51,986 bases of DNA from Marinitoga hydrogenitolerans DSM 16785 (lineage in GTDB: Bacteria > Thermotogota > Thermotogae > Petrotogales > Petrotogaceae), in contig NZ_FQUI01000012.1 in NCBI RefSeq assembly GCF_900129175.1, positions 1 through 51,986 on the forward strand, in the 5' to 3' direction. The translations under genes were made by a program, and so were the position numbers. Each line of letters opens with the position of its first letter. Position 1 is the stretch's first letter. Below, piece by piece: positions 33,677 through 43,187 of the stretch. The notes under the pieces were generated by a model. The model was not told the origin of the DNA. It worked only from the letters and a program-made list of their open reading frames with translations, and searched no databases.

Positions 33677-34583
33677 TGGTTTTATTTTAATAGACAAACC
33701 CTCTGGAATTACCTCTCATGATGCAGTTGACATAATAAGAAAAAAATTTTCAACAAAAAAAGTAGGGCATTCTGGGACATTAGATCCGTTTGCAACAGGT
33801 TTATTAATTCTTGGAATTAATAAAGGAACAAGACTTCTTGAATATCTCCAACATCAAAGCAAAAAATATTATGTAAAAGCAGAATTGGGAATAATAACAG
33901 ATACATATGATATTACAGGAGAAATAAAAGAAAAAAATCAAGTACAAAAGGAACATATTAATAAATTAGAAGAAGTAATTTTATCATTTAAAGGTAAGTA
34001 TTTACAGGTACCGCCAATGTATTCAGCAAGGAAATATAACGGAAAAAGATTGTTTGAATTGGCAAGACAAGGAAAAATAATAAAAATGCCACCCAAAGAG
34101 GTTGAAATATATAGTATTGAAAACATAAAAATATTTGAAAATGGTGTATTTGAATTTGAATGTGAAGTATCCTCTGGAACATATATAAGATCATTGATAA
34201 TGGATATTGGATATAAATTAAATACAGGTGCGGTAACTACAGAATTAAGAAGATTAAAAATAGGAAGTATTAAGGTAGATGACGCTGTCACATTAGAAAA
34301 AATGTCAGAAAAAGATATTATACCAATGTTTGAAATGTTATCCTTTCCGGCAGCTTATTTAAATGAAAAAGGAAAGCAACGAGCGTTAAACGGCAATCAT
34401 ATATTCTTAGAGCACATTGAACAATATGATACGTTCAAGAAAGGTGATAAAGTATCTTTAATTGATAAAGAAAAAAATTTGATAGCAATAGCGATAGCAG
34501 AAAGAAACTCGAAATTTTTAAAAACATTAGAAGAACATGAAAGAAATGAAAGAATTTTTAAAATAAAAAAAGTTTTTAAATGA
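33669..34583 (+). CDS. truB: tRNA pseudouridine-55 synthase TruB
   Basis: Start ATG 33669 behind ATAGGTGAA, overlapping rbfA by 8 nt. 304 aa. Motifs: GFILIDKPSGITSHD, VGHSGTLDPFATGLLILGI (with the catalytic Asp), YVKAELGIITDTYDITGE, VPPMYSARKYNGKRLFELAR and SSGTYIRSLIMDIG. Modifies U55 in the T-loop of tRNA. The C-terminal part after about residue 230 is the weak RNA-binding domain. Confidence 0.96.
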   Translation: MNNGFILIDKPSGITSHDAVDIIRKKFSTKKVGHSGTLDPFATGLLILGINKGTRLLEYLQHQSKKYYVKAELGIITDTYDITGEIKEKNQVQKEHINKLEEVILSFKGKYLQVPPMYSARKYNGKRLFELARQGKIIKMPPKEVEIYSIENIKIFENGVFEFECEVSSGTYIRSLIMDIGYKLNTGAVTTELRRLKIGSIKVDDAVTLEKMSEKDIIPMFEMLSFPAAYLNEKGKQRALNGNHIFLEHIEQYDTFKKGDKVSLIDKEKNLIAIAIAERNSKFLKTLEEHERNERIFKIKKVFK

Positions 34584-42578: not shown

Positions 42579-42607
42579 TTGACTTAGCGATAAAATTTTG
42601 ATATAAT
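42579..42607 (+). promoter_or_regulatory. Strong promoter of a candidate structured RNA
   Basis: -35 TTGACT (42579-42584), exactly 17 nt, -10 TATAAT (42602-42607). No coding frame follows; a terminator comes about 150 nt later. Confidence 0.8.
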
Positions 42608-42613
42608 AAAAGT

Positions 42614-42759
42614 AGATCTTTTTCCCTGTAGGACCTCATACCTCTGTTTTTCGAGTTTCCTGTTACAGGGTTGATGTCTAAGAATTTAACCAAATTTCTT
42701 AAAACATCTGGATTGTTGAATTCGTATTCCTTACGAAAGTAAGGGGTACGAATTTTTTT
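42614..42759 (+). ncRNA. Candidate free-standing structured small RNA (~146 nt)
   Basis: The unit has a near-consensus promoter (42579-42607) and a strong terminator (42719-42759), with no start codon behind a ribosome binding site between. Two internal hairpins can be drawn. One joins CCCTGTA (42634-42640) to TACAGGG (42664-42670), continued by GGA/TCC-type pairs. The other joins GATGT (42673-42677) to ACATC (42704-42708), with TAAGA/TCTTA inside. It does not show the conserved parts of 6S RNA, SRP RNA, tmRNA, RNase P RNA or the riboswitches I know. It could also be a leader cut off from its gene. The nearest plus-strand gene downstream is rtcB, more than 500 nt away. Confidence 0.55.
42719..42759 (+). 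terminator. Terminator of the candidate small RNA
   Basis: Sixteen-pair stem (42719-42734 with 42739-42754) including two U-G pairs, a GAAA tetraloop (42735-42738), and T run 42753-42759. Confidence 0.9.
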
Positions 42760-42771
42760 CTATTCCTTTCT

Positions 42772-42908: not shown

Positions 42909-42918
42909 ATATTCTGGT
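42909..42918 (+). repeat. 10-bp direct repeat, left copy (target-site duplication)
   Basis: ATATTCTGGT, identical to 43117-43126. The two copies bracket the inverted-repeat element exactly. Confidence 0.6.
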
Positions 42919-43116
42919 TAGTGTGTCCAATTAGTAAAGCAAGCGAAAACTCGCAGATTGTCCGAAAAAATAGAGAATGAAGCCGGTCAATTTTGCATGG
43001 ATGCAAAATTGAGTGAAGCCGAACACGGATGTGAGTCTGATACGACCGGCGAGAATGAGCTATTTTTGAGGATTAACAATCAAGGTTTGAGCGACTTTAC
43101 TTTTTTGGACATCGTA
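42919..43116. mobile_element. MITE-like element of nested inverted repeats (198 bp)
   Basis: Outer arms TGTCCAA (42924-42930) and TTGGACA (43105-43111), inner continuation AGTAAAG (42933-42939) with CTTTACT (43095-43101); the outermost 12 nt match in 9 places. Nested inside are GATTGT/ACAATC (42956-42961, 43076-43081), AAAAATAG/CTATTTTT (42966-42973, 43060-43067), GCCGGTC/GACCGGC (42982-42988, 43044-43050), and two closed hairpins, GCGA-AAAC-TCGC (42943-42954) and AATTTTGCAT-GG-ATGCAAAATT (42989-43010). The inside is clearly richer in GC than its surroundings. A 10-bp direct repeat lies on each side. It carries no transposase. It may also be transcribed as a structured RNA. Confidence 0.65.
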
Positions 43117-43126
43117 ATATTCTGGT
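43117..43126 (+). repeat. 10-bp direct repeat, right copy
   Basis: ATATTCTGGT, second copy of 42909-42918. Confidence 0.6.
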
Positions 43127-43187
43127 GTAGCGAAAAAGAAAGTGAAAATAATTGGAAAATTATCTGCAAATGAAGTTACCGAAATGT

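Follow-up and report, generated by a model that had tools for sequence, protein, structure and literature searches.

What is the GC-rich, self-pairing stretch at 42909-43126 of this DNA: a transposon, a functional RNA, or an RNA that travels with a transposon? A reading of the sequence alone had described a GC-richer, 198-bp element of paired arms between 10-bp direct repeats and read it as a MITE insertion with target-site duplication that may also be a functional RNA dispersed by a transposon.

A self-pairing element between direct repeats

Direct reading of the window (the whole stretch of DNA analyzed, 51,986 nucleotides) confirms the basic description. The repeat ATATTCTGGT occupies both 42909-42918 and 43117-43126, and 198 bp separate the two copies. 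The outer arms that had been proposed, TGTCCAA (42924-42930) and TTGGACA (43105-43111), are present as terminal inverted repeats inside longer imperfect arms. The features discussed below are as follows.

42909-42918, no strand: target-site duplication, left copy, 10 bp ATATTCTGGT (direct reading; 40 copies against mismatched flanks)
42919-43116, plus strand as the RNA sense: mobile element, MITE-like (fold z of -5.4; multicopy in Marinitoga; ends set by copy comparison)
42919-42936, plus strand: left terminal arm TAGTGTGTCCAATTAGTA (comparison with insertion sequence ends)
42938-43096, plus strand: structured RNA core (covariance model R1, 170.6 bits, with the window copy in the training set)
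42949-43088, plus strand: TwoAYGGAY-like part of the core (RF01731, 31 bits, E of 0.009, threshold of 43 bits)
42982-42988, plus strand: multiloop-closing stem, 5' strand GCCGGTC (helix 3; covariation across subtypes in six of its seven pairs)
42996-43003, plus strand: hairpin 1 loop and closing pair CATGGATG, CA-N-GGA-N-G (loop conservation in 91 copies)
43024-43031, plus strand: hairpin 2 loop and closing pair CACGGATG, CA-N-GGA-N-G (loop conservation; lost, as CGA, in subtype B)
43044-43050, plus strand: multiloop-closing stem, 3' strand GACCGGC (helix 3 covariation)
43099-43116, plus strand: right terminal arm ACTTTTTTGGACATCGTA, inverted relative to the left (direct reading; copy comparison)
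43117-43126, no strand: target-site duplication, right copy, 10 bp ATATTCTGGT (direct reading; flank comparison of 40 copies)

Read on the plus strand, the 198-bp element pairs along almost all of its length, with a folding energy of -62.9 kcal/mol; 200 dinucleotide shuffles gave -41.7 ± 4.0 kcal/mol (z of -5.4), and none matched the native fold. The minus strand folds comparably (z of -5.5). The GC content of the element is 41%, against 27.5% in both the window and the left flank, and of all 198-bp stretches in the window just 0.2% are as rich in GC. The element contains no functional open reading frame. The sole overlapping frame (71 amino acids, 42958-43173) crosses the hairpins and extends beyond the element end and is taken as fortuitous.

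Copies in Marinitoga and evidence for transposition

With the element as the query, relatives were found in all seven Marinitoga genomes of the family set. From 26 diverse copies, a covariance model (R1; 159 positions, 34 pairs) was constructed. It matched at least 5 times in the window's genome, at least 25 times in every one of four sister genomes, and at least once in each of two others, counts that are lower bounds, as at most 28 candidates were scored per genome and the filters were stricter. Among the five R1 matches listed for the window's own genome, one is of the window type. The further copies that a mobile element would be expected to have left thus exist both in this genome and in sister Marinitoga genomes. 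The remaining 96 Thermotogota genomes gave no R1 matches under strict filters that weak relatives may escape, and the viral contigs, phages, and plasmids searched gave no hits. Pattern matches in Treponema, Prevotella, and Bdellovibrionales had hinted at a wider spread and were judged to be chance; no TwoAYGGAY match accompanied them.

The ends of the copies carry the signature of transposition. Among 40 copies with TGTCCAA-type ends, 30 have their own direct repeat of at least 8 bp in register (mean, 8.9; typically, 9 to 12), whereas pairing the left and right flanks of different copies yields such a repeat in only 1.5% of cases (mean, 3.4); as a class, therefore, the flanking repeat is not due to chance. 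The joined flanks of copies were also used as search queries for empty sites, which were found for two siblings of the window element, the locus of the window copy itself not being syntenic in most relatives. The site of L107, a copy in genome G005, is cleanly empty in M. lauensis (97% identity), where the 11-bp sequence TTCTTTTAATT occurs once and the filled site has it twice. For L121, an approximate empty site lies in the window's genome (81% identity).

At the rtcB locus, genome G006 carries a relative of the window element in the corresponding intergenic region. It was considered as an ortholog, but its arms and flanks differ from those of the window element, which makes a separate insertion likelier. 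In G009, only fragments of rtcB are present (L105:190-650, corresponding to G009:C2:33689-34149), adjoining several of these repeats, one of which is a coreless 53-bp repeat, CAGTTTGTCGACAAA..CTACAAACTG, at 34200-34252.

A source for the ends is suggested by a 1029-bp insertion sequence in G007 (L104/L136), whose inverted ends, AGAGTGTCCAAAAAGT, match perfectly over 16 bp and which contains a fragment of a DDE_Tnp_1 transposase; L136 has GTGTCCAAAAAGTAA. A relic in the window's genome (L141) has GTGTCCAATTAGTAA as its left end, shared with the left arm of the window element, the relic starting with GTGTCCAATTAGTAAG and the element with GTGTCCAATTAGTAAAG. NCBIfam matches (IS4, IS5, IS982, and IS1182) were all under their cutoffs, and neither an intact copy of the insertion sequence nor an intact transposase gene was found, the copies examined being broken or running off contig ends. 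By the letters of these ends, the MITE ends appear to be those of a DDE insertion sequence of about 1 kb, and the cargo is not a shortened transposase gene. No RNA core is found at the insertion sequence loci, so simple internal deletion of the 1029-bp element does not account for the MITE. Transposases of the IS256 type (PF00872) are present in the genus and were rejected as mobilizers; the loci surrounding them lack matching inverted ends.

Like bacterial MITEs, the window element is short and without a functional open reading frame, has terminal inverted repeats and a target-site duplication, is dispersed in multiple copies with sibling empty sites, and appears to have ends in common with an insertion sequence. 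Unlike in those elements, the interior is a conserved structured RNA and not decayed transposon DNA, and related interiors occur with several different end sets. The interpretation as a MITE insertion with target-site duplication is upheld by the copies' own duplications, the sibling empty site, and the ~1.03-kb insertion sequence with matching ends, and we are nearly certain that this is a MITE-like nonautonomous transposon of Marinitoga. Comparison of the copies shows that it transposes through a staggered cut, which leaves about 10 bp of target duplicated.

A conserved structured core with two GGA loops

In the core, a long imperfect stem is combined with a multiloop whose closing stem covaries, and each of two hairpins displays CANGGANG in its loop. 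Under an explicit structure of 34 pairs, which was derived in part from the same alignment that was scored, 95% of paired cells are complementary, against 77% after shuffling. Two-sided changes occur in 21 of the 34 pairs, with 167 cells changed on both sides against 52 in shuffled alignments; the covariation score is 0.504 against 0.169 for shuffled alignments, and sliding the alignment by one column abolishes the signal. Covariation is therefore strong evidence for pairing. Alone, it is no proof of RNA function or of selection at the RNA level, since DNA processes can keep palindromic arms complementary.

Conservation of the loops is, by comparison of the copies, the stronger clue to an RNA function. 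Across 91 copies, the GGA, the A at position -2, and the flanking C and G are almost invariant, and the two N positions are variable. Close copy pairs differ at 9.3% of paired positions and 11.6% of the other unpaired positions. In the loops, they differ at 0% for the A two before GGA, 3.6% for GGA (chiefly in subtype B, at the first G of loop 2), and 0.3% for the G that follows, against 37% and 17% for the N positions before and after GGA. Subtype B has spread with one loop reduced to CGA, leaving one GGA loop. The closing stem and a conserved internal loop, GAATG..GAATG, are under as much constraint as the hairpins. The consensus for RsmE/CsrA, as given in a passage of PMC6849547 citing Schubert 2007, is 5'A/U-CANGGANG-U/A3'. 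Both hairpin loops of the window copy fit CANGGANG; the outer A/U is not always kept, hairpin 1 of the window having a G-C closing pair. The suggestion of a functional RNA spread by a transposon thus gains support from the interior covariation and the conserved loops.

Relationship to TwoAYGGAY and to known or candidate CsrA-binding RNAs

An Rfam scan of the window at the gathering threshold returned no match. By E value, the best match of the window copy is TwoAYGGAY (RF01731), at 31.0 bits and under the 43-bit threshold; its two AYGGAY terminal loops are ATGGAT at 42997-43002 and ACGGAT at 43025-43030. Sibling copies exceed the threshold (e.g., L118 at 49.7 and L121 at 46.1 bits; passing range, 43 to 51), and the over-threshold matches lie in four Marinitoga genomes and in no other Thermotogota. 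RF01731 belongs to the same Rfam clan, CL00106, as E. coli csrB, which was scanned as a control. The sequence-only reading had not recognized the element among known ones; for the core, this no longer holds, as it can now be related, at 31 bits and below threshold in the window copy, to TwoAYGGAY and to CsrA-binding hairpins. These comparisons establish that a conserved structured core related to TwoAYGGAY is present, genus-wide and in multiple copies, in an element of the MITE type.

That TwoAYGGAY may be a CsrA-binding RNA was put forward as a hypothesis in 2014 (PMC4333381). Like the window core, it has two AYGGAY-loop hairpins on a multiloop, a closing stem, and an outer stem, with CsrA as the proposed partner (PMC4333381). 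Unlike it, the window copy scores below threshold, and the Marinitoga copies lie inside transposable elements, with at least 25 in several genomes. In its passages on the family, PMC2864571 reports TwoAYGGAY from Clostridiales, gamma-Proteobacteria, and gut samples, a range that does not, in those passages, include the Thermotogota to which the Marinitoga copies belong.

CsrB/RsmB (RF00018) and RsmY/RsmZ share with the Marinitoga core GGA hairpin loops that fit CANGGANG, and CsrB shares the clan. The Marinitoga core differs in having two sites per RNA and not many, with no dedicated promoter seen, and its copies are numerous, dispersed, mobile, and restricted to the genus. The nearest precedent is the 5'tnpA RNA of Salmonella IS200, a structured RNA from a transposon that has three GGA and for which CsrA has been suggested as a candidate partner; unlike the Marinitoga core, it derives from the mRNA of the transposase, functions together with PinT, and binds Hfq (PMC12594629). 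Searches of the open-access literature turned up no report of a transposon-borne TwoAYGGAY RNA or CsrA sponge. The link between TwoAYGGAY and CsrA has thus been known as an idea since 2014, and its carriage by a transposon appears to be new.

Related cores on other ends, genomic context, and transcription

Genomes G005 and G006 have a related core enclosed by another pair of ends, CAGACTGTTGACAAA..TTTGTCTACAAACTG, and with a different duplication length. Elements of this type (L201, L204, L065, L203, and L200) are found at intrinsic terminators, and several copies are flanked by exact 12- to 24-bp duplicates of the terminator hairpin (e.g., ACAACCTTTATCAAAAGGTTGTTT at L204 and AAAGGAAGCATTAGCTTCCTT at L201). 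A terminator hairpin as the target with a duplication of 12 to 24 bp is unusual in both target and length. Further arm types, and copies nested in one another, occur in G008; L186, L187, L191, and L196 (G008:C2) sit inside the hairpin region of other copies, with inverted pairs about 130 to 250 bp apart. As far as the sequences can tell, a constant core with changing ends would be expected of a selected cargo; common descent with rapid turnover of the arms is an alternative.

The copies lie between genes, in many cases no more than 200 bp from one, and their neighbors vary. Relative to genes called by a simple open reading frame rule, 19 copies are in tandem sense, 29 in tandem antisense, 16 divergent, and 7 convergent. 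The 19 sense and 29 antisense tandem copies give no sense bias (p of about 0.2, binomial estimate), and many copies are therefore probably not transcribed as sense RNA. No convincing sense promoter was found directly upstream of the window copy, the best promoter-like site (42579-42607) standing before a terminator-like hairpin at 42718-42755.

That region, 42579-42763, holds a strong promoter-like and terminator-like pair around ~150 nucleotides and has a second copy (90%) at G000:C49. It was considered as a small RNA gene; its relatives read on the minus strand as what may be a short conserved peptide, so a decayed gene remnant is likelier. Elsewhere, a copy in G005 (L108:1014-1556) is followed closely by a tRNA gene and a lysine riboswitch, both identified by Rfam matches.

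CsrA in the host genomes

Of the 21 genomes of the family, 20 have a csrA gene, that of the window among them (G000:C9:42290-42454). The CsrA of this genome is similar to CsrA chains with solved structures and, in E. coli numbering, keeps R6 and R44, with K in place of R7. At locus L075, csrA (1432-1665) adjoins an upstream gene (1668-2648) whose 326-amino-acid product contains FliW-like sequence twice. FliW is a protein antagonist of CsrA, and the sequence suggests that this product is a fused, tandem FliW.

Competing explanations

We propose that the locus is a MITE carrying an RNA of the TwoAYGGAY/CsrB clan that is predicted to bind and sequester CsrA, and we give this whole reading a probability of roughly 0.6. 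On this proposal, in a copy transcribed in sense, the two hairpins would most likely bind both RNA sites of one CsrA dimer, and such capture would remove CsrA from mRNAs, as CsrB- and RsmZ-type RNAs do. Spreading copies would increase the number of such traps per genome, and the beneficiary may be the host, the element, or neither. The contender with the most to be said for it, which we consider unlikely, is a MITE that is wholly selfish: its hairpins would act at the DNA level (for example, extruded or single stranded in transposition and recognized by protein), and the GGA loops would serve DNA recognition or be a frozen accident of the founder. The absence of sense bias and the capacity of palindromic arms to stay complementary without RNA selection accord with it, as do the nested copies and those at terminator hairpins, where hairpins may matter in targeting. 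Against this, elements whose ends are unrelated and whose duplications differ in length carry a related core, and an insertion sequence with the same ends has no core, which implies that this end system does not need one. Moreover, the letters that stay invariant in the loops are those of the CsrA consensus, the N positions being left free, and the core matches RF01731, a family that passages of PMC2864571 place in other phyla.

If the core acts as RNA, its partner could be a protein other than CsrA, or its mechanism a different one. Such a role would account for the constraint on the GAATG..GAATG internal loop and closing stem, for which CsrA binding offers no explanation, and for the single GGA loop of subtype B; with both loops fitting CANGGANG, csrA present, and the Rfam clan link, we rate it as quite improbable. 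Cis-regulation of neighboring genes, the Rfam type of TwoAYGGAY being 'Cis-reg', is less plausible again: the copies are intergenic and often close to genes, and CsrA sites in leaders are classical, but neither position nor strand is constant with respect to genes (19/29/16/7), and the neighbors vary between copies. A chance palindrome beside a chance repeat has a negligible probability, refuted as it is by the fold, the covariation, the further copies, their own duplications, and the sibling empty site. Returning to the proposed CsrA-binding RNA, such a trap would probably act from a minority of transcribed copies, because there is no sense bias, the window copy has no convincing promoter, and subtype B is short of one GGA. 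The first two of these observations also make any effect on the host uncertain.

Implications

A broader proposal, which we advance tentatively and hold to be possible but doubtful, is that a predicted CsrA-binding RNA has been taken up, retained, and multiplied by transposons with at least two end systems, giving dispersed mobile sponges that would tune or parasitize the Csr system in a lineage where csrA stands beside a fliW-type gene. If the CsrA reading is true, a transposon would carry a regulator-binding RNA as conserved cargo, mobile copy number could set the level of a free global regulator, and the spread of a transposon would be linked to genome-wide change in expression. The 2014 proposal on TwoAYGGAY and CsrA would also gain organisms with dozens of natural variants, and candidate RNA-based titration of CsrA would be extended to the Thermotogota.
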